Assembly (NCBI GenBank): GCA_029851415.1
Contig: CM056743.1
Coordinates: forward strand, 32,380,714 to 32,444,713
Origin: Eretmocerus hayati
Taxonomy: Eukaryota > Arthropoda > Insecta > Hymenoptera > Aphelinidae
Length of the DNA stretch: 64,000 nt
Direction of reading: 5' to 3'
The position numbers and the translations under genes were made by a program. The notes beneath the pieces were generated by a model. That model was not told the origin of the DNA and made no database searches. It saw only the letters and a list, made by a program, of their open reading frames with translations. This document shows, piece after piece, positions 5,965 to 63,885 of the stretch. The first letter of the stretch is position 1. The number at the start of each line of letters is the position of its first letter.

Positions 5965-7523
5965 CCCACGATCTTATATACAGGTCTGGGCACTATCTAC
6001 AGCAAAACCGTTGCGTCTCTGAGTGGTGGCTCGACAATATGGCCGCTCAGCCAGCAAGCCAGGAAGCGCTCTGATTGGTCGGCCCTGATGACGCGGTTCA
6101 TGAGATATAAAAAACACAGCACGACAGCAGTCGACGGCAACAGTCATGCGATAAATACGGAATAGGTTGATAAATCGCTTGATTTGATTTCTCCAGATGA
6201 TGAGAGCCTTATCATGCCAAGTACTGTTTATTGATTTCATCCAATGGTATAATTCAGTCAGCACACCTTAGTTGCTCATGTGGTAGAGGGTTAAAAGCCA
6301 TCGCGTGAGTCTGAATTTATCCTGGACATACAAATTATCCTTTTGAGATCCATTGCACTACATCTTTGGATGAAAAATTGCATCCACGTGAGTACTTTGT
6401 GTTTATTGGTGCTCTGTAGGGATTTGTCTGCGTCTCTTAATTCATCTACGCGACTTTAGTATTAATCGCATAACTGTTGGTGTCGACTGCTGTAATTACT
6501 AACAAACCGTGTTATTACGGCCGATTAATCAAAGCGTTTCCTGGCTGAACGGCCATATTGCCGAGCCGCGACTCACAAACGCGACAGTTGTGATGTACGG
6601 AGTGCCCGGACCTGAATATGAGTAGTTCCACGTCAATTCAACAAGGTTTTCTCCGACCATGCTTTTATCCTTCCACAGGTTTTTTTTCCCGTTTTATAGT
6701 GTTGAAAAGAGATAGTTCGAACAGTTTATGGGGCCAAAAAATTTTTTTTGCATTGCCCAGGTCTATATGAGTGGTTTTGTCATGGATCCAAGATTTGAAA
6801 CATTGCCTCGGCAATTCGCCTATAACTTTTGACCATCCTCGCCAATCGCAATTCGGCTTACGGCATTCGAAAAAGGGATCGAAAACCTATCGATTTAACA
6901 CCTGCGAAGCCTTCTAAAAGCCGTTCTAAAAGCCGTTGGCCCTTGCCATACTCAAAATAACCTTGATCCACGATGCAGTCCAAATCTTTTTTGACCCCCC
7001 CCCCGAAAAAAATTTTTATTCGATTGATATCGTTCCAACCTACACGTAAAGAAGATTCGAGTATTTCTTTTGACATATGGCTTCTCTGAAATTATTTTTG
7101 TGCGTAAAAATGTTCAAAGAAGTAGAAAATTATTTCTCATGAAGCTGGAACTCCTTGTAGAGTTCTGAATTTTTTTGTCATCGTGTTTGTCAAGTTATTT
7201 TACATCGAAAATGTATTTCCTAAGCACCATTTGAAATATTAAAAGTCGTCAAAACACTGGAAAAGCATTTTTGAATCGAATATTTGAACAGAAAATGGCC
7301 TCATCAGCATGCTCATTAGGTTTTGGGTTCGTGAAACTATTTCCAAACGTTAGCCCTCAAAATTTCCTTCAAAATGACCTATTGTGAAAGTCTATTTGAT
7401 GCACTAGGAGTGGATTTGTAGCCGCTCGAATCAAAACAGAAATGTCGAGAATGAAATCTGTGAGCCCTACGTAGCCTTCTCATAACTTCAAAGACTCTTT
7501 GGCAGCTGTGTACCACATCATTC
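5965..7523. repeat. Left arm of a 919-bp inverted repeat (interrupted)
   Basis: After removing the nested 640 bp (element plus one TA), this arm is 919 bp, exactly the length of the inverted copy at 14726-15644. It starts CCCACGATCTTATA and ends CACATCATTC. The two arms either bound one ~9.7-kb element or are two independent opposite insertions. The flanks TATGG (left) and TACGG (right) are only a weak candidate duplication. Confidence 0.85.
5979..6616. mobile_element. Nested TIR element with TA target duplication, 638 bp
   Basis: The ends are T(A/T)CAGGTC(T/C)GGGCAC on both strands, followed by about 120 bp of imperfect inverted repeat containing CAATATGGCCG. TA flanks both sides (5977-5978, 6617-6618). 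The uninterrupted inverted arm near 15625-15640 reads straight through the insertion point, so the empty site is preserved in this window. Confidence 0.85.
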
Positions 7524-8390
7524 AAGGGAATCGACTTCGGCTATAGGTTTTGCTTTCTCTAAAAAGAAAACTTTGTGTTCACCCCAACGAAAATTTGATC
7601 AAATTACATTATATTAAGTCGCGTGACGACTGTTTGGTGTCCGGAATCACTAGATTTTTTCCCCTAGATCGGTTTTAACCTAACCTGACCTGACTTTCCT
7701 CTAGAGAATAATATCCCTAGATTTATTACTAACCTGACCTGACTCAAAAGTTGCGCGCTGCCGTCTTAACTTTACCTGTCTTGATTTGTCTCCAGAGATA
7801 AATATCCCTAGATTTTACTAACCTAACCTGATAAGACCAAAAAGTTGCGCGTATTTTCCTCTAGATTTTTTTTACAATTCTATCTAGGGTCTATTTTACC
7901 AGTTTCTTTCCATCTGTTATACTTTACCTGTTCTATGGATTTTTTACCTATTTTGATTTTAGACATTTTATCACTTTGGATATTACTTATTCTATTTTAC
8001 CTGTTTCGTTTCACCTGTTTGTTTAGATTTTTTACCCCTTTCAGATGTTAAATTTTGTAAAGCTGTCAAAAGTCTGTTCGTTGTACCCTTGCCGTGTTAT
8101 CATGTTTTCGCACCAATATCCCTTTTTGATGCATCCGCTCACCTTACTCTCGTATGGTGTCGGACACAGGGATACGGGCTACTCCCATGTTTCCAAGCGT
8201 TTTGTGGGTACCGCTGTCTTTGTCTGGCTCGAATTGATGTAAGAGTTCTGTCGAAAGTCTGTCTGTTGAACCTTCGCTTCGAGCCATCGTCGAATTCGCA
8301 CCATTTTCTACATTTGCTCACCATACATAGGTATTATGATGTCGCAAGTGCAGAAAATGGATTGTTCCAACGATGGAAGCTTGGGTCCCT
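7524..8390. other. Unassigned, with AACCTGACCTGAC near-repeat
   Basis: The words AACCTGACCTGAC / AACCTAACCTGA recur at about 7678, 7733 and 7821, together with a shared AAATATCCCTAGATTT block, indicating a small decayed tandem repeat. The rest is thymine-rich on the plus strand. There is no coding support. Confidence 0.5.
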
Positions 8391-14697: not shown

Positions 14698-14725
14698 GAA
14701 ACCTATTTCCGGAGTTACCCCCGTC

Positions 14726-15644
14726 GAATGATGTGGTACACAGCTGCCAAAGAGTCTTCGAAGTTATGAGAAGGCTACGTAGGGCTCACAGATTTCATTC
14801 TTGACATTCTTGTTTTGATTCGAGTGGCTACAAATCCCCTCCTAGTGCATCAAATAAACTCTTACAATAAGTCATTTCGAGGGAAATTCTGAGGGCTAAC
14901 GTTTGAGGATAGTTTCACGAACCCAAAACCTAATGAGCATGCTGATGAGGCCATTCTCTGTTCAAAAATTCGCTCTGAAAATGCTTTTCCAGTGTTTTGA
15001 CTACTTTCAATGACTCAAATGATTCTTGGAAAATATATTTTCGATGTAAAACGACTTGGCAAACACGATGGAAATAGATTCAGAGCTCTACAAGGAGTTC
15101 CGGCTTCATGAGAAATAATTTTCTACTTTTTTGACATGTTTACGCCCAAAAATAGTTCCAGAGAAGCCATATCTCAGAAGAAATACTCCAAATCTCTTTT
15201 ACGTGTGGGTTGGAACAATATCAATAAAAAAAAAAATAAAAAAAATTTTTTTTCGGAGGGGGGAGGGTCAAAAAAGATATGGGCTACCTCGAGAATCAAG
15301 GTTATTTTGAGTCTGGCAAGGGCCAGGACGGCTTTTAGAAGGCTTTGCAGGTGTTAATCGATGGATTTTTGACCCTTTTTTCGAATGCCGTCAGCCGAAT
15401 TGCGATTGGTGAGGATGGTCAAAAGTTATATGCAAATTGCCGAGGCAATGTTTCAAATCTTGGATTCATGGAAAAACCACTCATATAGACCTGGGTAATG
15501 CAAAAAAAATTTTTGGCCCTTCAAACTGTTCTAACCATCTCTATTCAACACTATGGAATGGAGAAAAATCCTATGGAGGGATGAAAAAATGGTCGGATAA
15601 AACCTTGTTGAATTGACGTGGAATTACTCATATAAGATCGTGGG
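14726..15644. repeat. Right arm of the 919-bp inverted repeat
   Basis: This is the uninterrupted inverted copy of 5965-7523. It begins GAATGATGTGGTACACAGCT and ends ATAAGATCGTGGG, and carries the empty TA site for the element nested in the left arm. The 73-codon frame at 15136-15357 is A-rich repeat, not coding. Confidence 0.88.
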
Positions 15645-17097: not shown

Positions 17098-17922
17098 CTA
17101 GGCATCATCCAATTTCATAGATTTCAAAGCAGTAAAATAAGTTGATGAGAGTTTAATCAGCTGGAAATCCAAAAGAAGTATACATTCAATTCTTTGCAGA
17201 GGGATTGCCAGGAATGATCAGTTTTAGCTCATTTACAGTCATGAAAGATTCCATCGAAAGATTCGAGAATTTTCCAGCAGTGAGTGCACAAGGACGCATC
17301 CCTTGATGCATGACCATAGTTATGTATTTGCGTTGCTGTGGTCGGGCAAGGTACCAATTACTCGAGAACCTATGGATTTGTTTCAAACGTGATTTGTGAA
17401 TCTTGAATGAGTTAGCGAGGAGTGAGTGATATCCATAGATTTATGAGCTTACCCGCAATAAAAAACTTCCCCGCTAGAATCGATGAGCTCTTGGCCCAAC
17501 CAATGAACTAAGAAAAGCACAATATAGATTGCTGATATCAACGTTGTGAGCATGGTCTTCTCTATGAATAGCATATCTGAATTCATCACCTGAAAGAGTA
17601 AAAATGAATGTACTATTTGTTGTAATTGTCCCACCGCACAGATAGACCTCTTACAAAAAAGTAGCACATGGATAAAATGATCACACAGGCTATTTGGAGA
17701 ACAAAGCAAGTCATCGTCATTATGTCTTCCATCACATTGTACAAGCTGAACATTTAAAAAGCCAATAAGTCATCAAAAGTAGTAAAAATCATATTTTGGA
17801 TCAAGTAAGCATCATACTCAATGGTTTGGACATGCAAAGCTACCACACTTCGAACGTCATCAGATCTCACGTCACTTTGGGATGTGTGAGCCTCTTCTCC
17901 AACAATATTTTGGATCCTAAAA
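17098..17922 (-). CDS. Odorant receptor (7tm_6 family), C-terminal five exons
   Basis: This is an insect odorant receptor, a plasma-membrane ligand-gated channel subunit that works with Orco in sensory neurons. Five exons splice in consistent phase on the minus strand: 17818-17916 (acceptor TTTTAG; an alternative starts at 17922), 17655-17745, 17453-17589, 17237-17369 and 17098-17160. The introns are 72, 65, 83 and 76 bp, all GT...AG. Together they give about 173 codons ending in TAG at 17098-17100. Visible hallmarks are an intracellular VALHVQTID segment, transmembrane 5 (LQIACVIILSM), transmembrane 6 with HWLGQELIDSSGEV, then SSNWYLA, CALTAGKFSNLSMESF and the terminal TYFTALKSM. This order and the exon phases match the hymenopteran OR family. 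A full receptor has about 380-400 residues, so the 5' half is missing or unrecognised upstream. A 435-bp tandem duplication ends inside the first listed exon. The 3' half looks intact; whether the gene is functional is unknown. Confidence 0.9.
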
Positions 17923-18705
17923 CTGGTAGATGAGAGGGAATAAGTTGAGGATTATGATACATAATGACGTGGAGATCGAGCTCTGTAACTCGAATGGTTG
18001 AATCTCTGTGACGATAGTGGTCGTTATCATGGATTGGCGTTTACAGGCGCGCAGGTGCTTATCAGGGGTCGAAGACCCAAAAAGGGGGTTTTTCGCGATT
18101 GTGTGCCGACTGTTGGTCGGATCGGAAAATGGTTCAGATAAAAGTTGTAGCCTTTTCAGAAAGAAAGAGAATGAGCTTAACTAAGATGATCTAGGATTAT
18201 CAGAATAGGGAAAATCGAGATAAAAGTCACCGGCCGTATCTCAGCGGAGACGGGAAAAGATGGCAGCTGTAAAGCTACCACACTTCGAACGTCATCAGAT
18301 CTCACGTCACTTTGGGATGTGTGAGCCTCTTCTCCAACAATATTTTGGATCCTAAAACTGGTAGATGAGAGGGAATAAGTTGAGGATTATGATACATAAT
18401 GACGTGGAGATCGAGCTCTGTAACTCGAATGGTTGAATCTCTGTGACGATAGTGGTCGTTATCATGGATTGGCGTTTACAGGCGCGCAGGTGCTTATCAG
18501 GGGTCGAAGACCCAAAAAGGGGGTTTTTCGCGATTGTGTGCCGACTGTTGGTCGGATCGGAAAATGGTTCAGATAAAAGTTGTAGCCTTTTCAGAAAGAA
18601 AGAGAATGAGCTTAACTAAGATGATCTAGGATTATCAGAATAGGGAAAATCGAGATAAAAGTCACCGGCCGTATCTCAGCGGAGACGGGAAAAGATGGCA
18701 GCTGT
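17836..18705. repeat. Perfect 435-bp tandem duplication
   Basis: Units 17836-18270 and 18271-18705 appear identical base for base on reading. Both run from AAAGCTACCACACTTCGAAC to GAAAAGATGGCAGCTGT. The unit covers most of one OR exon and the intron upstream. The identity indicates a very recent event or an assembly artefact. Confidence 0.95.
18271..18357 (-). pseudogene. Duplicated, truncated OR exon
   Basis: This is the upstream copy of the OR exon at 17818-17922. It keeps the acceptor but loses the last 18 bp and the splice donor at the duplication junction, so it cannot be spliced normally. A working transcript would have to skip it and use the downstream copy. Confidence 0.8.
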
Positions 18706-19358
18706 AGCTGCATGTGCGGCGTCGGAACAATTTCAGGAATACTTGTCTCATTACAGAACAGAGATGTGTATTGGTTCTCCATCGTTGCGTGGTATTGAAT
18801 CGAATAGAAGTAGTCAAAATAGCTAAATCCTCCAGAGTACAAAATATCTCATTGGCCTTGAGAATTTGGATTATAATTCTTATTGGATCTTTCAAATCAT
18901 CAGAGGCAAAGAGATATGATAACAAAGCAAGCCTTGTTTCACAAACACTTGCGTCTGGTCAAATAAACAATTTTGAACATCACGCGTACTCATTTCGATA
19001 GCTTATTGTAGAGCACCACAGCCTCGTAACGCAAACAAACTACGACCAGGACTTTGTTTAAATGCCTCGCTGTGCGGCGAAACTCGTGTGAAATTTCGCC
19101 ATATGATTCTGTATGACACGCCGAGTGCTAAAATTCCCTCCATCTATCAATTTACAATACGATTGTACGATTTATCGATAGCCGATCTTGGATTGATTGT
19201 ATTGGATCTCAATCGATTCGTCGGGATAGCGAGATTATCGAAACTGTTGAGATTAACTTCGAAAATACACGGTGCGCCTCTGGCGAGGATGAGTTTAACG
19301 AAAATGACAAGGAAACCTGGAAAAGGGTTTTTTTTTTGTACGAATCGTCACGAATTCA
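18706..19358. other. Possible OR 5' region, unresolved
   Basis: Minus-strand frames at 18612-18842 and 18662-18925 lie where the receptor's N-terminal exons would be expected. An ATG at about 18988 opens a 33-codon frame, then stops. None shows a clear OR motif, and the frames would need a shift to join. I cannot assign them. Confidence 0.25.
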
Positions 19359-24425: not shown

Positions 24426-25298
24426 TAGGGATGCCGCGAGACGAGATGAGACGAGGAATTGGGAGTTATCGTCTCGCTCTCGAAAAAATTAAAAAATTTG
24501 GTTATCGTCTCGTTATCGTCTCGTCTCGTCTCGTTATCGAGCGAAACTCTCGATGAGAGTTGTTCAATAATAATGATGTATCATTACTCCTCGGCTTCAT
24601 ATGCGCTCAATAGCCAACAAGTGATTGTAATACCACAACTCAAGTTAAAACTCAGAAATCCAAAAACTTGTTGAATCTGAAATATCTATGGGTTAAGACT
24701 GATACGTCTGAGTCCCGAAGTTGGAAGAAAGAGATAAATGAGTATTTGAGAGCTGCCAGAGCTACTGAAGGAACAACGGACATCCTTTTATCGTGGAAAG
24801 ACCACTCATACACGTATCCATCACTAAGCCGAATGGCTAGAGATATCTTGAACATACAAGCTACGTTAGTGCCAGTTGAACGCGCTTTTTCTGATGTTTC
24901 ATTGATAATGACTCATTTAAGAAATCGGCTGAGCCATGAGAGTATCAGAGCATCCTTAAGTCTAAATTCATGGATGAAATCAAATTTAAAAGCGGCCATC
25001 TATAAAGTTAATATATAGGAAAAATGAAGTGTTCTTGCTCCAAAACAAATATACCTGTCGGTTGTCAGAAAGACAATTGAACAAATATGTTATTTTGATC
25101 GAATAAATATGATGAAATATGATGAGCTACAATTTAGAGTGTTTTTTGTCGATATCTCGACGAGAGCCTCGGCGAGAACAAAAGTTCTTATCGTCTCGAG
25201 CGATAAATTACTGATACCCTCTCGCCTCGATCTCGTCTCGCCATTGCGAGACGAGATCGAGACGAGAGCGAGAAATCTCGAATATCGCGGCATCCCTA
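24426..25298 (+). mobile_element. hAT element with residual transposase domain, 873 bp
   Basis: The perfect 14-bp termini are TAGGGATGCCGCGA and TCGCGGCATCCCTA. They are flanked by an exact 8-bp duplication AATACGCT at 24418-24425 and 25299-25306, as expected for hAT. The subterminal 100-150 bp at both ends is packed with GAGACGAG / CTCGTCTC. The interior encodes only the C-terminal part of a hAT transposase, so the element is an internally deleted, non-autonomous copy. Confidence 0.95.
24668..25018 (+). pseudogene. hAT transposase C-terminal dimerisation domain fragment
   Basis: The 116-codon frame contains YPSLSRMARDILNIQAT, then PVERAFSDVSLIMTHLRNRL, and ends NSWMKSNL. This is the hallmark hAT C-terminal dimerisation motif (xLAxxxLxIxATxVPxERxFS...RNRLS). 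The catalytic DDE core and the zinc-finger N-terminus are absent, so it cannot be an active transposase. It lies wholly within the TIRs of the 24426-25298 element, and no start codon with good context is needed for a remnant. Confidence 0.92.
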
Positions 25299-40330: not shown

Positions 40331-40883
40331 TTTCCTGGAAAGTCCTAATCATAATTGAATCCCATTATGAAACCATGACAGAGAGTACACCGAGAAAAAC
40401 TCTCCACATTCTTGTATAGAAACTCTCCATATACTCAGGACAAACTGGCTCACCCTCATTCCTCGAATGGACGGTGTACACGTATGAGGCCAAACTTCAC
40501 GAGCCTCGTAGTTTTGTATATTTCAACGTTATGCATCCCTTCTTGTGGCAATGATCTCGTGTATTTTGCTCAAGTTTCAGCTTAGAATTCGAATTTTTCA
40601 ATACAATTGATTTGCATCAAACAGGTAGTGAATATGAGCTTACCGAAGAATAAACTTCAATGAATCGTTGATTTTGGGTGAGAGGAGAGAGCCCCACAAG
40701 AATTTTTGCGATATCTTGAGAGTGGAATTTACTGGCATCACCTAAGGACGCGTCCACGTCTGTGGACAAATGTGCGAAGAGGTTAAGTCTAAGACTGGTG
40801 GATTTCATCCGTCAGCCCCGCGGAAGGGATTACCATCTTCGCTCTCCATCGGATCCCCCGCGGTTCCGATACCGACGGACCGT
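40331..40883. other. Unassigned sequence
   Basis: Nothing recognised; it borders the giant palindrome, with weak similarity to the right flank continuing to about 40862. Confidence 0.45.
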
Positions 40884-43800
40884 CGCACTATAGTCGTCAC
40901 ATTCCAACTCTGGCCAAAAATCGCTTCAAAATTTGTTTCAAGCTATCGGGATGAGCCAAACGGCATTCTCTTCGTAATCGACAGGGCTAGGAGATGTGCT
41001 CATCTGATTTTGGCTCAGACAAAGGAGGCAGGGGTGGGGGGGTGTTGAACGCGAAATGGGGTTGAAGATCGATATTTCGCCGGAATGAAACTCACGCGTG
41101 GCGAGTCAGTAGTTCTACTGCCGATCTGCAACCACTTGGAGTACCTTCTAGAGGTAGATGGCAGTATTTTAAACTCAACCCCAAGTCTGAGAATCACCGC
41201 AATCAGCTCTGAGGTCAATTCTGAGCTGAGAAGAGGTGATAAATGCTGCGAATTAGTCAATTATACTGGATTCTGAGTCGAAAATGATTCTACTGCCAAC
41301 TCTCAACTCTTTTCAAAACATTCCTCCATCGATTCTCAGAATTTTGAGTCTGGGCACAGCTCTAAGAATTGCTGTGGGGAATTTTGAGATCGGTTCAGAT
41401 TTATTTTGTGGCGGGATTGTCTCTTCAGATCTTAAGGGACATTCGAGATGGTCGATTTTGGCTCAGAATGCGATATGCTGCCAGATGAAGAAGACTTTGG
41501 GTGTATTTCTAGAGCATTAAACATAATTTTTAGCCTGGTCTCAGGTCTGGGAATTGCCGCAGAGGGATTTGAGATCAATATTCGTCCAGGAAAGGTTGTC
41601 TGGCCGCGCAGAATATTAGATAAATCGTTATTTCTAGGTGGAGAAAGAGTGTACTGCCGATCTGTAATAACTTGGGGTACTTTTTGAGAGTGGGAAACAG
41701 TATTTTAAGTTCATCCTCATGTACGGGATCCAACGCAATCAGCTCTGAGGTCGATTCTGAGCCGAGAAAAATTGACGAGCCTTGATAATTAGTTGGGAAT
41801 AGTGAATTCTGGGTCGAATCTAATCCTACTGCCGACTCAGAACCCGTTTCAACACATTCTCCCATAAATTTACAAAATTTTGAGCCAAAACACAGTTCTG
41901 AGAATTGCTGAGGGAGGATTTGAGATCGATTCTGATCTATTTTGCGGCTAAAATGTCTGTTGAGATATGGCAGTCATCCGAGAATGGTCGATTTTACCAC
42001 AGAATTCAATATGCTGCCAGGTCAGGAACATCTCGAGTGGGATCATAGAACATTTAATAGAATTTTGAGCCCAATCTCAAGTCTAGAAATTGCCGTAGAA
42101 GAATTCCAGATCGATATTCGTCAAGAAAAAGCTGCAGAACAGTGCAGATTATTCAAGAAACGGTGAGTTCTAGGTGACGAATAAATATACTGCCGATCTA
42201 CAATGACTCGGGGTACATTCTAGGGATGCGAAACAATATTTTGAGCTAAAGCTCAGGTCAGAGAGTCACCGCAATCGGTTCTGAGGCCGATTCCAGAGCG
42301 AGGAGAAGTGATGAGCGCTGCGTATTCGTCGAAAATAGTGGTTTCTAGATCGGAAACCTCTCTGCTGCTACCAGAAGGGGCGTTCTCGTGCATTTTACCA
42401 TCACTCACCAGGATTTTGAGCCCAAGCACGGCTCTGAAAATTCCCGTGGACGAGTTTGAAATCGAATTCGATCTCTTCCGAGTCCGGAAAGTCTCATTAG
42501 CACAGGTTTCGATCAAGAGTGACCGATTTCGGCTCGGATTTTGATATGCTGCCGAGTCGAACAAACTTTGATTGAATTCCTCAAGTGCAGATCAGATTTT
42601 AGAGCCTAATCCGATGTCGAGAAATTACTGCCGAGAGATTTGAAAACGATATGTGTCCAGCAAAAGCTGTTCAGTAATGCAGATTATTCAAGGAATGGTG
42701 ATTTTTCGGTGAAAAAAAATTATACTGCCGATCAAAAAAAACTTGCAGTACATGCGGAAGACGTTAGGCAATATTCCAAGCCCAACCCCGTGTCTGAGAA
42801 TCACTGCAATCAGCTCTGGGTTGAGTCTGAGCAACGAAAAAGCAATGAAAGGCGCGTATCGGTCGCGAATAATGTTTCATAAGTGGGAGACAGTCCTGCT
42901 GCCACCTCAAGAACCTGTTCCATGCATTATGCTTCAAATCCTCCGGATTTTGAGCCCAAACACGACTCTGAGAACAGCCGTGGTTGAGTTTGACATCGAT
43001 TCTGATCCGATTTCCCTGTCAGAAGCGTATCTCCAGTACCAACATGAATCAAATATAACCGATTTTAGCTCGGAAATCGATATGCTGCCGTTTCGAAAAC
43101 ACTTGGAGTGAATCTGTCCAGTATTTAGCTGAAATTTGACTTCAATCCGTAGGCCAGGAATTGCCGCAAAAAATTTTGGGAACAACATTCGTCCAGGAAA
43201 AGCTGTCGAGTAATGCAGATTATTCAAGGAATAGTGATTTCTTGGTGGAGAAAAAATATACTGCCGATCTACAAATACTTGCACTACATGCGGTAGATAA
43301 TAGGCAATATTTCAAGCCCAACCCCGTGTCTGAGAGCCACTGCAATCAGCTCTGGATTGAGTCTGAGCAAAGAAAAAGCAGTGAAAGGCGCGTATCAGTC
43401 GCGAATAATGTTTTATAAGTCGGAGACAGTCCTGCTGCCACCCCAAGAACCTATTTCATGCATTATACTTCAAATCCCCCGGATTTTGAGCCCAAACGCG
43501 ACTCTGAGAACAGCCGTGGTTGAGTTTGACATCGATTCTGATCCGGTTTCCCTGTCAGGAGCGTATCTCAAACACTGGCATGTATCTGTCCAGTATTTAG
43601 CTGGAATTTGACCTGAATCCGTAGGCCAGGAATTGCCGCAAAAAAATTTGGGAACAACATTCGTCCAGGAAAAGCTGCCGAGTAATGCAGATTATTCAAG
43701 GAATGGTGATTTCTAGGTGGAGAAGAAATATATTGCCGATCTACAAATACTTGCACTACATGCGGAAAAAGTTAGGCAATATTTCAAGCCTAACCACGTG

Positions 43801-43935
43801 TCTGAGAATCACTGCAATCAGCTCTGGATTGAGTCTGAGCAAAGGAAAAACGGTGGATGGTGCGTATCAATCTCGAATAATGGATTATAAGTCGGAGACA
43901 GTCCTACTGCCACCCCAAGAATCATTCGAATGGGC
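40884..43935. repeat. Giant palindrome, left arm (3,052 bp) of 536-bp higher-order repeats
   Basis: It starts CGCACTATAGTCGTCACATT. About 200 bp of unique terminal sequence is followed by a tandem array whose marker TACTGCCGATCT lies at 41116, 41652, 42188, 42723, 43259 and 43731 (TATTGCC variant). The spacings are 536, 536, 535, 536 and 472 bp. Within a unit the CTGCC monomer start recurs at about 175-185 bp (41118, 41293, 41478), so each unit is three ~178-bp monomers. All frames on both strands here are repeat translations. Confidence 0.95.
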
Positions 43936-46691
43936 CAGGGCAAAGCGGTTCTTCTGCCACTCCAAAACAATTTGGAATACGGTCTGGGAGCACTCAACAA
44001 AATTCCCATTCCAATTTGAAGTCTAGTCACTGTTGCACTCAGATCCACAAGAGATCTTGTGGCCTCAAAACTCGGGTTGTCTCCGTGGTGAATAAAATCA
44101 TCAAGTCATGATATAATCCTCAGAACCCTCTGATTTCTGCATACGTCTGGATGGTTTACTGTGTATCCATCGAAAAAGTTTTTGGTTTTATACTTGTGAA
44201 GGCTTGACGTTAACCCTTATTTATCCGTATTCTGGTTCAATAACACTTACGGGTCATAGTTCAACCCCAACATCGCCAAGATACAGCGGCAGATATGGGA
44301 GTTCGCAACTGATCCATATGGTTTCGAGTAGAGTCAAATCATGAAGGGGCGTATTGGTCAAATGATAAGATAGGTTCCAATGATCTTCTCGATCTCAATA
44401 CGTGTAGTACAGATGTAAAAAATAACGACAAAGACTGAGATGATCATTAAGCTATGCCTCGATTTGTATTTATTGTGTACCTATATTAATCATATCCAAA
44501 AAATATTATATTCTCACACGAATGTGTTACATAGAAAGTGAACATGTCCACAAAGAACAATATAGCAGACGAAAAAATAAGGAATCAAACAATCTTGGTA
44601 TTTCTGATCAACATACTAATCACTTGATAAGTAACCGTACAATCATTTCAGAGGAGTATGATACAAGAGATTACACAAATGACAATATCGTGATGCCGCG
44701 TTATACTTCTCTGCGATAAGATTCTCTTTTCCATGTCTATTGAGCGTTTCATCGCTTACTCTTGAATTCGGATCCTAGTATGAGCCTGAAGAGAAATGTC
44801 AAGGAACACAAAAAGTGTCCTCTAACCGACGAAATGAAGTCACTCATCCAATCACGATCAGACGTAGATATAGATGACATCGAATATGCTGACGAGAATC
44901 CAACTCATGAATTTCCATTTGTTGGTGGAGGCTCTTGCAAAGAAACTCAAAACGATGATGACACTGACTCCAACTCGGACGAAGATGTGGACAACTGGGA
45001 AGAGAACTTAGATAGCGATGATACTAGTGAAGAAGAGTTTGATGAATACATAGATTATGATTGATGACGAAAAATGCATTCTTCTACTGTACGTCTAGAC
45101 TCATTTCGTCATCAAGGCTGTGAGTTCCGAGACAGGGGCTTCTGGATTCCATTATCCCATTCATGCATATGACTCTGAATCTCAATTACTCCTAGTTCCT
45201 AATGGAAACGAGCGCGCGTGCGCGTGCGGCTCGCTTGTAACTTGGCCTGTGCAGCCTACGCTCTTATGGGATCCCTCAGGGTCGAAGGGTGTATTTCTCA
45301 CACGATTCCGTGGGCATTCGCACATACCACTATATGAGCATGGGGATATTCCTTGGGCTGTTTAATTTTTCATGTCAAAATCGATGAAATGGGGAATTAC
45401 TTCTCGTGAATCGCCTTGTAGAGCATGTGAATTTATATACATTTCTTATCAAGTAAGATGACTATCAAGTACTACGCTGAGTAAAAAATTATGGTCATAT
45501 GGCCATGCGTTTGGCCATACGACCACAATGGTAATTTTCCGGCAGACCTATACCAATTCTGTTATCGCATCAATCCAGGGAAACGTTTTGACGATCTGAT
45601 ATTACTGACAGGATGAATGGATTGAACCGAGATGTTCCAATTGCCTCAATACTCGATAGAGTCACAATCGCATGACGAGAATTTTCCCACGAAAGCTACC
45701 GACTTTTTGCTCGAAATGACACTGATGATTGGATTTTAATAATCCAAAAATTTTTTGAGAATATTTATACAGGTTGATACAATAAAAAGGTCATCCATGT
45801 GAGGTCTGACGGCAATACCACGTAACAATCAAGTCGTATTGATCGAAAGGTAATTTTATTCCCAGTATAGGTTATGTTGCAATATTATGAAATTGAGCCA
45901 AATCGTCGCACTATACGAAAATCCACCCGATACTTATCAATTTCCTCTGACTAGTACATGGAGATGAAACATTTCGACGTTCTCTTTGAACTGAAGGAAA
46001 TTTGATATTTAGAATCGGGGACGTATACAACGGAACCAACTGCCCTAACCAAATTTTCATACGGTGTTGAGTTTACCTATGACATTTTATGTGGATATAT
46101 GTTTATGTTCCAGTATATACGTACTTTGAGAGCTGATGGGGCCTCACATACAGTTGAGTCAGCTCATGTCCATAAGCTTGCACTCCTATGTACGGGCTCG
46201 GTCCCTCAATCCGCAATTCACTGATGTATTGGGACTTGAAACATATGGAAATATATCAATGAGCTGTAAAATAATGTTATTAATCACATTATTCCTTTTC
46301 GAAGCCCGAAATCCATTATGGAACATGGCCGAAGTCTCGATTTCTTGCGTAAACTTGTGTGTTTTGAACACTGATATTTTGTCGACCAAGACTTCGGCAA
46401 CCCCCACTTGATTGACATTGTTCTTCAGTTCTTTCAGGCTGAATATTTATCTTGAATCTTTCTCTGGCAATTTTCGCACCGTATTTCTAGCTTAGACATC
46501 TGCTGGACAGTCCCGGATCGAAACGTAGATGATTTTGGATGGCATGGAAAGTATTTTACATTGCTACTCATGGTTCTTCAGCGGATTTGCACCACTCAAC
46601 ATCTTTCCATCGTCCAATGTCGATCTTGTAACTCTCTACGGTGATGCTCAGAGTTGCGTTCAAGCTCGATATTTTGGGAAATTATATCAGA
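43936..46691. other. Central spacer of the giant palindrome (2.76 kb)
   Basis: This unique sequence between the arms has no CTGCC monomers. It contains a possible acidic ORF (44780-45064), a CpG-rich stretch with GAGCGCGCGTGCGCGTGC at 45210 and otherwise AT-rich DNA. No transposase, reverse transcriptase or integrase domain was recognised. Confidence 0.7.
44780..45064 (+). CDS. Possible acidic-tail ORF, unknown function
   Basis: An ATG at 44780 opens 94 codons. The first ~20 residues are basic (SLKRNVKEHKKC), followed by LTDEMKSLIQSRSDVDIDDI and a strongly acidic tail (DDDTDSNSDEDVDNWEENLD and beyond). Such composition is unlikely by chance in AT-rich DNA and recalls the acidic N-termini of some transposases (piggyBac for example) or nuclear proteins, but no catalytic domain follows. 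A preceding frame at 44522-44719 might be an upstream exon, without good splice sites. I do not recognise the protein; it may be a remnant of the element's cargo or a host exon. Confidence 0.35.
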   Translation: MSLKRNVKEHKKCPLTDEMKSLIQSRSDVDIDDIEYADENPTHEFPFVGGGSCKETQNDDDTDSNSDEDVDNWEENLDSDDTSEEEFDEYIDYD

Positions 46692-49274
46692 GCCCATTCG
46701 AATGATTCTTGAGGTGGCAGTAGGACTGTCTCCGACTTATAATCCATTATTCGAGATTGATACGCACCATCCACCGTTTTTCCTTTGCTCAGACTCATTC
46801 CAGAGCTGACTGCAGTGATTCTCAGACACGTGGTTGGGCTTGAAATATTGCCTAACGTTTTCCGCATGTAGTGCAAGTATTTGTAGATCGGCAGTATATT
46901 TTTTCTCCACCTAGAAATCACCATTCCTTGGATAATCTGCATTACTCGACAGCTTTTCCTGGACGAATGTTGTTCCCAAATTTTTTTGCGGCAATTCCTG
47001 GCCTACGAATTAAGGTCGAATTTCAGCTAAATACTGAACAGATTCACTCCAAGTGTTTTCGAAGCGGCAGCATATCGATTTTCGAGCTAGAATCGGTTAT
47101 CTCTGATTTATGCCAGTGTTTGAGATACGCTCCTGACAGGGAAATCGGATCAGAATCGATGTCAAACTCAACCACGGCTGTTCTCAGAGTCGCGTTTGGG
47201 CTCAAAATCCGGGGGGTTTGAAGTATGATGCATGAAACAGGTACTTGGGGTGGCAGCAGGACTGTTTCCGACTCATAAAACATTATTCGCGACTGATACG
47301 CGCCTTTCACTGCTTTTTCCTCGCTCAGACTCAATCCAGAGCTGATTTCAGTGATTCTCAGACACGGGGTTGGGCTTGAAATATTGCCTAATATCTTCCG
47401 CATGTACTGCAAGTTTTTTTTGATCGGCAGTATAATTTTTTTTCACCAAAAAATCACCATTCCTTAAATAATCTGCATTACTGAACAGCTTTTTCTGGAC
47501 GAATATCGTTCTCAAAACTCTCGGCAGTAATTTCTCGACATCGGATTAGGCTCTAAAATCTGATCTGCACTTGAGGAATTCAATCAGAGTTTGTTCGACT
47601 CGGCAGCATATCAAAATCCGAGCTGAAATCGGTCACTCTTGATCGAAACCTGTGCTAATGAGACTTTCCCGACTCGGAAGAGATCGAATTCGATTTCAAA
47701 CTCGTCCACGGGAATTTTCAGAGCCGTGCTTGGGCTCAAAATCCTGGTGAGTGATGGTAAAATGCACGAGAAAGCCTCTTCTGGTAGCAGCAGAGAGGTT
47801 TCCGATCTAGAAACCACTATTTTCGACGAATACGCAGCGCTTATCACTTTTCCTCGCTCTGGAATCGGCCTCAGAACCGATTGCGGTGACTCTCTGACCT
47901 GAGCTTTAGCTCAAATATTGTTTCGCATCCCTAGAATGTACCCCGAGTCATTGTAGATCGGCAATATATTCATTCGTCACCTAGAACTCACCGTTTCTTG
48001 AATAATCTGCACTGTTCTGCAGCTTTTTCTTGACGGATATCGATCTGGAATTCTTCTACGGCAATTTCTAGACTTGAGATTGGGCTCAAAATTCTATTGA
48101 ATGTTCTATGATCCCACTCGAGATGTTCCTGACCTGGCAGCATATTGAATTCTGTGGTAAAATCGACCATTCTCGGATGACTGCCATATCTCAACAGACA
48201 TTTTAGCCGCAAAATAGATCAGAATCGATCTCAAATCCTCCCTCAGCAATTTTTAGAACTGTGTTTCGGCTCAAAATTCTGTAAATTTATGGGAGAATGT
48301 GTTGAAACGGGTTCTGAGTCGGCAGTAGGATTAGATTCGACCCAGAATTCACTATTCCCGACTAATTATCAAGGCTCGTCAACTTTTCTCGGCTCAGAAT
48401 CGACCTCAGAGCTGATTGCGTTGGATCCCGTACATGAGGATGAACTTAAAATACTGTTTCCCACTCTCAAAAAGTACCCCAAGTTATTACAGATCGGCAG
48501 TACACTCTTTCTCCACCTAGAAATAACGATTTATCTAATATTCTGCGCGGCCAGACAGCCTTTTCTGGACGAATATTGATCTCAAATCCCTCTGCGGCAA
48601 TTCTCAGACCTGAGACCAGGCTAAAAATTATGTTTAATGCTCTAGGAATACACCCAAAGTCTTCTTCATCTGGCAGCATATCGCATTCTGGGCTAAAATC
48701 GACCATCTCGAATGTCCCTTAAGATCTGAAGAGACAATCCCGCCACAAAATAAATCTGAACCGATTTCAAAATTCCCCGCAGCAATTCTTAGAGCTGTGC
48801 CCAGACTCAAAATTCTGAGAATCGATGGAGGAATGTTTTGGAAAGAGTTGAGAGTTGGCAGTAGAATCATTTTCGACTCAGAATCCAGTATAATCGACTA
48901 ATTCGCAGCATTTATCACCTCTTCTCAGCTCAGAATCGACCTCAGAGCTGATTGCGGTGATTCTCAGACTTGGGGTTGAGTTTCAAATACTGCCATCTAC
49001 CTCTAGAAGGTACCCCAAGTGGTTGCGGATCGGCAGTAGAACTACTGACTCGCCACGCGTGAGTTTCATTCCGGCGAAATATCGATCTTCAACCCCATTT
49101 CGCGTTCAACACCCCCCCCCCCACCCCTGCCCCCTTTGTCTGAGACAAAATCAGATGAGCACATCTCCTAGCCCTGTCGATTACGAAGAGAATGCCGTTT
49201 GGCTCATCCCGATAGCTTGAAACAAATTTTGAAGCGATTTTTGGCCAGAGTTGGAATGTGACGACTATAGTGCG
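46692..49274. repeat. Giant palindrome, right arm (2,583 bp)
   Basis: This is the inverted counterpart of 40884-43935. The complement of the marker lies at about 46896, 47432, 47966, 48502 and 49038, spacings of 536, 534, 536 and 536 bp. It has five units against six in the left arm; the missing one corresponds to the 472-bp unit at 43259. Matching frames in the two arms give identical or nearly identical translations (for example 41942-42166 and 47988-48212), so arm identity is far higher than unit-to-unit identity. Confidence 0.95.
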
Positions 49275-50210
49275 TCGCTCGTGGCTCGGACCCTCCACGG
49301 TGCTCGTACAAGAGGAGCTCTCTCGATGCTCAATACGTTCTATCGTTCGCAACTATATCCTCCCGCCAATTCCACAATTTCCGAACAAATCCTAATATCT
49401 CTTCGTCAATCTTCATCAATAAATTTTTGCATCTTTTCACGTTTGATTCATATCCCTATCACCAATAGGTCCCGAGATAGCCAAAACTTGCATATCTCCA
49501 ATTATTATAGACTTTTTCGGAAATTTCCTACGCAAATCTACTCGCATATTTCAAGACTATCACTGGAAATTTTAGAAAAAAATTAGCATTTCTCTTCATC
49601 ACCTGGCGCTTACCCAAAGTTCAGGTACCTCCAAAATCATCATTCTTTCTGCATTTTCTTATGATCTGATAACCACTAAGGCTCCACATGTGGTGTGATT
49701 TTGATAATGGAGATTTCTTACGAGGCGCAATTACATGTTCTTCGATAATACCTTAATCACAGAATTTTGCGTTCTTTCTTTCCGGCTGTAGTTACCAAAA
49801 ATTCCCGATGTGTCAATCTTTTTTAAGCCGATAGTGGTTCAATCACTTGAAGTCTTCATTCGTTCTGAATGAATAAGAATCAACGGATGAGATGAAGATA
49901 ACCATCATGATATGGAACATTTGTTTGTCCAGGATGCGCTTTAAGTGGGTGAACTCTGTTCAGAATCTCTATGAGGGGCGATTAGTATTGTTTCGTGGGA
50001 AGACACTGTCAGCTCACGTGAAAAAGGTGAAGCATTCGCAATCTGATACAAAGTTGGCAATGATGTTCCTAAACTTCGATTGTATAAAATGCAAAACTTG
50101 TCGGAAGTTCTGAAGAAAACAGTTCGAGCTTTCATCAGAATAATAAGCACAGCACACGATCAGTTGAACATCACCCATACTACTATCTTCTGTAACGTTG
50201 TGGCTTTGTA
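49275..50210. other. Unassigned sequence
   Basis: Plus-strand frames at 49251-49586 and 49892-50113 lack recognisable domains. No repeat boundary is apparent until the family A terminus at 50211. Confidence 0.4.
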
Positions 50211-56969: not shown

Positions 56970-58420
56970 TGTTAGTGACTACCCGTGTGAAAAAATCTCG
57001 TTTGAGACAAGTTGTGGAGAAGTTTTCTTTGGGTCAAGTTTGGGCCAAACCTAACCCATGAGACTGAGCCAAACTTGTGCCATCAGCCCCCAAGAAGGTT
57101 TTCATGTTTGGGAGAAGTTTGGCATAAATTTTAGCCTAACGTAGCACAATTTTGGTCGGTAAGCTATAGGTCCTGTTCAGGAAATTTGGGAAGCCTGTGG
57201 CTCAAGTGTGGGAGACCTCTATCGAAAGTTTGCCTTAGGTTGGGGAGAAGAAGTGCCAAGCTTTCCCCAAACAAACGCCTCGCAGCATGTACTCCACGCG
57301 GGTGCTTACGACAACCCTTGGGAACAGCTCTCGCGATGCGGCGCAAGAGCAGCTAGAGCCATGCCGTCACCGAACTTTTGCCCGCGCCGAGGTTGCTTTC
57401 TTCACCTCAAAATGTATTGAATTTTCGCCATGAATCTCTCGTGCGGAAAACTTGCACGAGTCGGAATCAGTCACTGTTGAATAATGTTACAGGTTACACT
57501 TTGACAACGTTGTTGGTTAACAACAGAAAAATCGATATCAATGGTCGTTGCCACCCGACAAGATTATCGGCGTAACCTCTTCAACAATGGCTGATGCCAA
57601 TTCGTGCAAGTTCTCCGCACGAGGAATTCATGGCAAAAATTCAATGCATTTTCACGTGAAGAGAGCAACCTCGGCGTGGGCAAAAGTTCGGTGACGGCAT
57701 GGCTCCAGCTGCTCTTGTTCAGATGAGCATCCCAGGTCTTTTTATTCAAAAAAATCTTGTAAATCTACACCGCAGTGTCTTTTTAACCTGAATCATTCCT
57801 TCATATTGAAATCTTTGAGAGTGTTTTTGTTTCTTAGAAATACCTCTCTTCGTTTACCCTCGACACGATACTTCGGAGTGAATTTGGTTTGTTGCAGGCA
57901 AGAAGCAGAGAGTTTCTTCGGCTCGACTGCATGAATAAAGCTTGCGCCGATGAGCAGCCATGGTGATTAGTCGCATGTTGTTAAACCCAGGCTTTCTGTT
58001 ATTTCCAACTCAATTTTTGCGGGCACGAATTGTGCCACATCGCGAGAGCTGCTTTCAAGGGTTGTCGAAAACACCCGCGTGAAGGACATGCTGCGAGGCG
58101 TTTGTTTGGGAAAAGCTTGGCATTTCTTCTCCCAAACCTAAGTCAAACTTTGGATAGAGGTCTCCGGCACTCGAGCTACAGAGGCTTCCCAAATTTCCTG
58201 ATCAGGCCTCATAGTTTTCTGAAACCTCAACCAAAGTTGTGCTGAGTTTGGCTAAACTTTACGCCAAGTTTCTTCCAAACATGAAAACCTTTTTGGGGGC
58301 TCATGGCACAAGTTTGGCTCAGTCTCATGGGTTAAATTTGTCCCAAACTTGAACCAAAGAAAACTTCTCCCAAACTTTTGTCCCAAACGTGATTTTTTTT
58401 TACCCGGCTAGGGACTTCAG
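56970..58420. mobile_element. Long-TIR element (~1.45 kb) with a nested palindrome
   Basis: The left TIR at about 56970-57330 and the right at 58035-58420 pair over about 360 bp (GAGAAGTTTTCTTTGG / CCAAAGAAAACTTCTC, ATGCTGCGAGGCGTTTG). Inside, 57333-57735 is a second palindrome. The ends are near CTACCCGTGTGAAAAA and its mirror; a target duplication is not resolved. Confidence 0.85.
57333..57735. repeat. Inner palindrome (~400 bp)
   Basis: GAGCAGCTAGAGCCATGCCG near 57348 pairs with CGGCATGGCTCCAGCTGCTC near 57693. The arms continue through TTTGCCC(A/G)CGCCGAGGTTGC and GTGCGGA(A/G)AACTTGCACGA. The loop is about 57490-57560. Confidence 0.88.
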
Positions 58421-62142: not shown

Positions 62143-63885
62143 CGGTAAGTGTACCTAACTTGCTTCCACTGAACTATTTTCTCAACAACAAACAAATCAA
62201 CTTAAATCAGCGTTGAAGTGCATGAAACCATTTTATAATCGTGCGACCCCATTTGAAGCTTTGCATCGGTCCAAAATACTATCTCCGACCCATTTTGACC
62301 TGATGAATACGTTCTGAGTGATGAAAAAAAGTAAAATTGCGAACCTTTTCGAGATAGCAGTATGGGGTATGTTTTGTACACTCCGATGTTAAATCTCTCG
62401 TTTTACGAATCATATTCGTGTTATGTAGTCCGGGCGCTGGAGGGGTCTGAGTAAAAAGATCGTGTTCCAGAAGGTTTGAAGGTGTATTATTATGTATTTT
62501 GAGGCGCTGAATCGAATGCACGAGGTCACTAGCCCGAAAACCTCGGCGTTCTTTTGATATTAACAATTTTTCGTGCAAAATTATGGTTTTTTGCAAAAAA
62601 CTCGGAAAATATGCATTTTTACGGAAAATTTGTAGAGACTAAAGTTGCAGAACGCAAAATTACCTATAAAAGAAGGTCCTCACAAATTTCCCGGAAAACC
62701 CAAGCTTGGGGCAGGAAATGCGCGAAAACCGTTCCACGCGTTTAGTATGGGCTTATATGTGGCAGCTGATGCAGTGCTACTAAACTCGCTGCCAATTTGA
62801 CAGTTGTCAGTTTAGGGCTAGGCAACCAAGTGGATCGTGAAGAGGATGAAATTTCCTTCAAAATGGTTTAGGTCGTATTTCGCTAAGAACGAAGCCCTTC
62901 GAGCGTGGCTCAAAAGAAAGGGAAATAAGTGTGTCAAAACCCTATTCCCGCAGCAAAACTGCCGGCGCGCGGCGATACGAGAGCGACCGAGTCGCAGCGC
63001 TACAACACAATTTTAGCCTCAGAATCTGTACTTTTTATATTCCTCTCGCTCCATAGCCGAAGATGTTTGAGTTCAGCGGAATCAGGCCTGCACTATTTTG
63101 AAGAAAATTTCACCGTCTTCACGATTCACTTGGTCGCCTAGCCCTAAACTGACAACTGTCAAATTGGCAGCGAGTTTAGTAGCGCTGCATCAGCTGCCCC
63201 ATATAAGCCCATGTTAGACGCGCGGAACGGTTTTCGCGCATTTCCCGCCCCAGGCTTGGGTTTTCCGGGAAATTTGTAAGGACTTTTTTTGTAGAAAATT
63301 TTGCGTTCTACAACTTTAGTCTCTACAAATTTTCCGTAAAAATGCATATTTTCCGAGTTTTTTGCAAAAAAATCATAATTTTGCGCTGAAAATTGTTGAT
63401 AACAAAAGAACGCCGGGGTTTTCGGGCTGGCGACCTCGTGCATTCGATTCAGCGCCTCAAAATATATGAAAATACACCTTCAAACCTTCTGGAACACGAT
63501 CTTTTTACACAGACCCCCCCCCCCCCCCCAGCGCCCGGACTAATGCACAGTATCTCCACATGCGAGTTTTGCAACTCTCACAAAAGAATTTTGAAGGTCT
63601 TGAGACAAGGAATCACATGCACTGCGAAACGTTAATTGGCCAAACTAAATAAACTTGATACCAATTTTACTGAACGCAATTTGCTCGGCGATCTCTTGGC
63701 TCAGAAACACGAAAAATGGAAAAATCACCTCGAATCTTCTAGGAAATACACAAACGATCCAGGGTCGATCTAAAACACTTCGTTTAGTTCTATCTCAACA
63801 TAACGGATGTAAATAAAACTCGCGAAGGTCAGTGAGTGCCAATTCCTAAGATCGGCATATGGGGGCAAGTTGGGTGCACTTGCTT
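62143..63885. mobile_element. TA-flanked element, family B copy 2, interrupted
   Basis: The left end CGGTAAGTGTACCTAACTTG and the right end CAAGTTGGGTGCACTTGCTT match the 10591-11410 element, with TA on both sides (62141-62142, 63886-63887). About 630 bp remain when the nested 1,113-bp element is removed, so this copy also lacks about 200 bp relative to copy 1. Confidence 0.82.
62428..63540. mobile_element. Nested palindromic element with TA duplication, 1,113 bp
   Basis: The ends are GTCCGGGCGCTGG and CCAGCGCCCGGAC with TA on each side (62426-62427, 63541-63542). The arms of about 440 bp are close to identical; one has a 17-base poly-C tract where the other has GGGG. The central ~230 bp is unique. 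Copy 1 of the host element supplies the aligned, uninterrupted site near 11055. Confidence 0.92.

Follow-up and report, generated by a model that had tools for sequence, protein, structure and literature searches.

What is a palindrome of more than eight kilobases, with arms made of tandem repeats whose units each hold three monomers, and how did it arise? This question is raised by a window of 64,000 nucleotides of contig CM056743.1 of Eretmocerus hayati (assembly GCA_029851415.1; C3:32380714-32444713 in the 692-Mb genome of 17 contigs). An earlier note, made from the letters of this window alone, had described a giant palindrome with mirror-image array arms around a 2.76-kb spacer; it had called the structure foldback-like and the arrays higher-order repeats, and had pointed to a link with centromere satellites. 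Our analysis confirms the palindrome as real and identifies it, almost certainly, as one copy of a dispersed mobile foldback element.

Structure of the palindrome

The element occupies 8387 bp, its ends lying 2 bp inside each of those given by the earlier note, and its spacer measures 2756 bp (Table 1). Aligned over 2576 columns (40878-43449 versus 46706-49280), the arms are 95.7% identical; their outer blocks (41032-42241 / 47913-49122 and 40878-41042 / 49116-49280) are 98% complementary, and the inner ends (43570-43935 / 46692-47058) pair at 95.1%. The number of array units is unequal between the arms, the left one containing an extra unit of 472 bp. Adjacent 536-bp units of the array are only 71-72% alike, so that the arms resemble each other much more than the units do, as had been claimed.

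Copies across the genome and insertion signature

The terminal 20-mer, CACTATAGTCGTCACATTCC, has 130 exact matches genome-wide, 67 forward and 63 reverse, and its reversed control has none. Among the 100 of these places that were listed, 36 convergent pairs were recognized, 4.0-22.6 kb apart (13 below 7.1 kb, 19 of 7.1-9.7 kb and 4 larger), together with 28 unpaired ends, and there were no divergent neighbours within 30 kb (0/35). A 617-bp arm piece used as the query gave at least 82 matches (best 40 of 575 candidates scored), at least 40 of them being arms at 96-100%, the two of the window included, and at least 42 being weaker array matches at 68-75%. With the spacer as the query, at least 51 matches were obtained (best 40 of 587 candidates scored), the long ones at 95-98% (100% for the window itself) and short 69-bp pieces at 91-99%. 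For comparison we took 20 copies from the best arm matches, four copies of the short class (L029-L032) and, from two further copies, the middle part only.

A perfect 5-bp target site duplication (TSD) flanks 19 of the 21 two-ended copies, while the other two show one mismatch. These 21 comprise the window element, 16 of the 20 best-match copies and the four short ones; L017, L019, L023 and L025 have a single end in the piece examined and were left out of the count. The consensus of the duplication is CGNCG (C in 19, G in 19, a mixed third position, C in 21 and G in 19 of the 21). The flanks are unrelated, only 1 of 32 matching other loci. One copy, L028, is inserted in a different tandem repeat, and its flanks match the neighbouring unit of that repeat (77-80% alike): CGACA ends the alignment of the left flank and begins that of the right one. 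As both flanks meet at this pentanucleotide, the paralogous empty site has the 5 bp once. The foldback-like structure is therefore borne out by the inverted ends, the 5-bp duplications, the dispersed copies and the empty site: long terminal inverted repeats (TIRs) with tandem repeats flank a middle segment, and the dispersed copies have precise ends and target site duplications.

In each of the 21 two-ended copies the array is present in both arms, which indicates that it is older than the spread of the sampled copies. Ten full-length spacers differ by 1.37% from their majority, and the family is apparently young and non-autonomous. As a separate observation, three same-strand termini at C3:91218490, 91226572 and 91234657 are spaced by 8.08 kb and perhaps represent a tandem triplication of a copy.

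Exchange of sequence between the arms

Arm sequences were compared over their outer 1000 bp in 16 copies, with L022 (interrupted end), the four one-ended copies and the short class left out. Mean identity was 98.07% within copies and 97.3-97.5% between copies, and in a tree of arms, built without support values, 11 of the 16 same-copy pairs were sisters. Private variants are more telling. We found 26 that are common to both arms of one copy and occur in no other arm, while pairing the arms of different copies (40 shuffles) gave a mean of 0.475 and a maximum of 2; arm-specific private variants numbered 116 in the A arm and 93 in the B arm. Sequence thus passes between the arms, though most differences are arm-specific.

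The junctions with the spacer tell the same. In L032 both arms are continued by one and the same end of the spacer (positions 1-399), with a loop of about 165 bp, and in L031 both are continued by the opposite end. A copy at C3:60477106, seen in its middle part only, reads spacer positions 378-808 and later 809-435 inverted. Altogether, both arms stand beside the same spacer end in 3 of 27 copies (the window, the 20, the four and the two; several seen only in part). The shared private variants and the shared spacer ends indicate that the arms are copied from each other. The earlier note had left a choice between an array built first and then duplicated in inverted orientation, and arms under homogenization; both have found support, the former in the presence of the array in every two-ended copy and the latter in the exchange between arms.

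Transposase and mechanism of mobilization

The CACTATAG ends and the 5-bp GC-rich duplications suggest a transposase of the Transib/RAG type, and, judged by this footprint, such an assignment is probable. The duplication is GC-biased and mostly CGNCG, and the termini are heptamer-like and start with CAC, departing at position 7. The published systems are described here and below from excerpts of the cited articles. These give ProtoRAG CAC-starting ends (CACTATG, one base apart from CACTATA here) and 5-bp GC-biased duplications (PMC8289069, PMC7204232), Transib a duplication of 5 bp (PMC4411706), and Drosophila hopper and transib2 a duplication of 5 bp with the motif CCANTGG (PMC3276498). Unlike in these Transib and RAG-like elements, no RAG1-like gene has been seen in the copies examined here, and the arms of the window element, of about 2.6 and 3.1 kb, contain tandem arrays.

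In our opinion the element is quite probably a young, dispersed, non-autonomous foldback, moved in trans by a Transib/RAG-type transposase, with arms kept alike by templated repair. In this case the transposase, supplied in trans, would cut at the CAC ends and insert the element with duplication of 5 bp of the target. After excision or breakage, repair could template one arm on the other, since the arms can fold back together; such repair would keep them alike and sometimes drag spacer sequence into an arm, and unequal pairing in its course would change the number of units. With less assurance, we lean towards a broader view, according to which this is a foldback lineage mobilized by a Transib/RAG-type transposase, the foldback shape having evolved also in the V(D)J-related superfamily, with multi-monomer satellite-like arms that may be kept alike by arm-to-arm copying able to pull the spacer into the inverted repeat.

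Several points weigh against such a scenario. Sampling from the best matches is biased to young copies. No coding copy was found when a transposase was sought in the copies examined, and a search with the RAG1 profile of Pfam (PF12940) was negative at E <= 0.001, this being a weak test in which no control genome matched either. The terminus has A at position 7, where G is preferred in ProtoRAG. The excess of within-copy over between-copy arm identity is modest and 5 of the 16 same-copy pairs are not sisters, so homogenization is partial. Finally, the outermost 100 bp of the element have no similarity to the array beyond that of shuffles, and the idea that the array monomers are duplicated terminal transposase-binding sites was rejected as lacking sequence support.

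As to an autonomous form, two candidates were considered and discarded. The 6-kb size class, of which four copies (5.4-6.7 kb) were examined and nine others below 7.1 kb fell outside the sample, is represented in L029-L032 by internally deleted or rearranged copies with a longest stop-to-stop frame of 166 aa (133 aa in the window element). The coding part of the 22.6-kb copy belongs to a nested element of about 13 kb.

Alternatively, the foldback could belong to another superfamily (Mutator/Rehavkus, P/Galileo, CACTA or an undescribed one) and not to the Transib/RAG type. Mutator is thought to be the source of most foldbacks, with exceptions (PMC4079207), and Galileo is of the P type (PMC4168063); the terminus of our element starts with CACTA, and one copy harbours a nested long-TIR element with open reading frames (ORFs) that look MULE-like by eye. 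We nevertheless regard this alternative as rather unlikely: the TSD is 5 bp in 19 of 21 copies, as opposed to 8-10 bp in Tetris and 7-8 bp in Galileo, and the nested element, flanked by its own duplication of 7 or 9 bp, represents a separate insertion. Mutator elements in general, with duplications of about 8-11 bp, and CACTA elements, which duplicate 2-3 bp, likewise disagree with the 5 bp observed. A Ginger2/TDD origin was also rejected, the ends of these elements being TGTNR (PMC2836005), unlike the termini here.

Organization of the array and the question of a satellite origin

In both arms the 536-bp period consists of monomers of 175, 185 and 176 bp. Left-arm monomers of the same position are 57-71% alike (84-90% for the three inner first-position ones) and those of different positions 37-57%, which makes the three-monomer order real. 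In the monomer tree, every left monomer with a counterpart on the right clusters with it or inside its subgroup. At its right end the spacer contains a degenerate continuation of the array (score 63 versus 40 for the best of 100 shuffles), while at its left end the likeness is marginal (38 versus 37). The higher-order repeat of the earlier note therefore stands as regards its three-monomer order; it is not of the homogenized, centromere type, because the units are divergent.

Periodicity built of several monomers would also be expected of a captured and inverted centromeric or pericentromeric satellite, and, among the places listed, 44 of the 53 terminus loci on C1-C3 fall within the central 40% of the chromosome. 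However, such an origin is highly improbable, and the centromere link suggested at first has found no support. The array 20-mer has 280 matches in the genome (control 0), and its ratio to the termini (280/130 = 2.15) is close to that in 18 examined elements (78/33 = 2.36), so large arrays of it outside the element are not indicated by exact matches, though diverged ones would escape such matching. Large homogenized free arrays, characteristic of centromere higher-order repeats, are thus not apparent from the exact-match count or from units 71-72% alike. The window locus itself is off-centre, at 19% of C3. The element may rather serve as an example of a complex tandem array carried by a transposon without visibly turning into a free satellite.

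Although nearly identical inverted arms are well known to mislead assembly, a false inverted duplicate is very unlikely, to the point of being negligible, because one layout recurs at many loci with differing, unrelated flanks and site-specific 5-bp duplications, and the arms of the window element show 2-4% divergence and unequal numbers of units.

Relation to known foldback elements

Foldbacks with tandem-repeat ends are already known, and have been described mainly from the Mutator and P lineages; their pairing with the present footprint is new within the literature searched. No report of a foldback with a Transib-type footprint was found among the articles listed by searches of the open-licence PMC literature; one article (PMC9659126) has both words, Transib occurring there only in a reference. 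The closest architecture is that of Tetris from Drosophila virilis, which, according to the excerpts of its description, likewise has long TIRs with a variable number of tandem repeats (about 220 bp), an outer flanking domain and a non-coding middle, and is likewise non-autonomous, its transposase not having been found (PMC4079207). Tetris differs in the length of its TSD, in its simple monomer, as opposed to the three-monomer unit here, and in a 37-bp stretch common to its repeat and its flanking domain; nothing comparable was found in our family. Its repeats also build kilobase-size satellite arrays, not seen here by the exact 20-mer, and three structurally complete copies are described, compared with the 21 two-ended ones examined by us. 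As for Galileo (P superfamily, Drosophila), it shares with our family a palindromic target motif and TIRs lengthened by tandem repeats as well as by recruited internal sequence (PMC4168063), while its TSD has the consensus GTATTAC in place of CGNCG. The same source describes the recruitment of internal sequence as known up to then only from Galileo.

A Transib/RAG-type footprint in a family whose copies are many, young and well assembled would mean that the foldback architecture does not depend on a particular transposase for its origin. Besides, replicate copies make it possible to count events of arm-to-arm copying, changes in unit number and cases in which unique sequence has been drawn into the inverted repeat.

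Reading frame in the spacer

The spacer contains a short acidic ORF, which could not be assigned to a known domain by Pfam and PDB searches. It is open at 99 aa in 11 of 20 spacers, one of the 11 lacking an ATG; the window ORF lacks 15 bp, in frame, and among the remaining spacers two have it truncated and six are without the anchor.

Table 1. Coordinates of the element and its parts in the window
Feature	Position	Strand	Remarks
Whole foldback-type element	40886..49272	.	8387 bp
Left arm (terminal inverted repeat)	40886..43935	+	3050 bp, one extra 472-bp unit
Right arm (terminal inverted repeat)	46692..49272	-	2581 bp
Spacer between arms	43936..46691	+	2756 bp
Target site duplication CGTCG, left	40881..40885	+	
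Target site duplication CGTCG, right	49273..49277	+	
Terminus CACTATAGTCGTCACATTCC	40886..40905	+	130 exact genome matches
Inverted copy of terminus CACTATAGTCGTCACATTCC	49253..49272	-	
536-bp-period array, three ~178-bp monomers, left	41116..43935	+	
536-bp-period array, right	46692..49038	-	array similarity on to 46638, degenerate to ~46406
Acidic ORF	44780..45064	+	94 aa in window; no Pfam or PDB match at E <= 1

Other repeats in the window and in the copies

The element nested in the 22.6-kb copy on C3 (L033:309 to L034:3416) is a second kind of long-TIR-with-array transposon in this genome. Its inverted ends form two blocks that total about 1.7 kb (arm-to-arm identity 93 and 97%) and contain a tandem array of about 142 bp, and its duplication is of 7 or 9 bp (TCTATAT / TCTATATGG). 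By eye its ORFs are FLYWCH/MULE-like, and four of the frames have no Pfam match over the cut-off. We presume that it resembles Rehavkus.

The window itself contains several further repeats. An inverted pair at 6616-7550 / 14699-15633 (86% over 950 columns, span 9.0 kb) encloses tandem arrays, and two short elements at 62426-63542 and 56990-58398 are bounded by long inverted repeats, of about 460 bp (89%) and about 360 bp (85%), respectively; in the pair as well as in the short elements the candidate duplications are of only 4 bp. A fragment of a hAT transposase dimerisation domain (Pfam PF05699, E 2.3e-15) lies at 24614-25015, and a 435-bp unit is found in near-perfect tandem duplication (99.8-100%) at 17833-18706.

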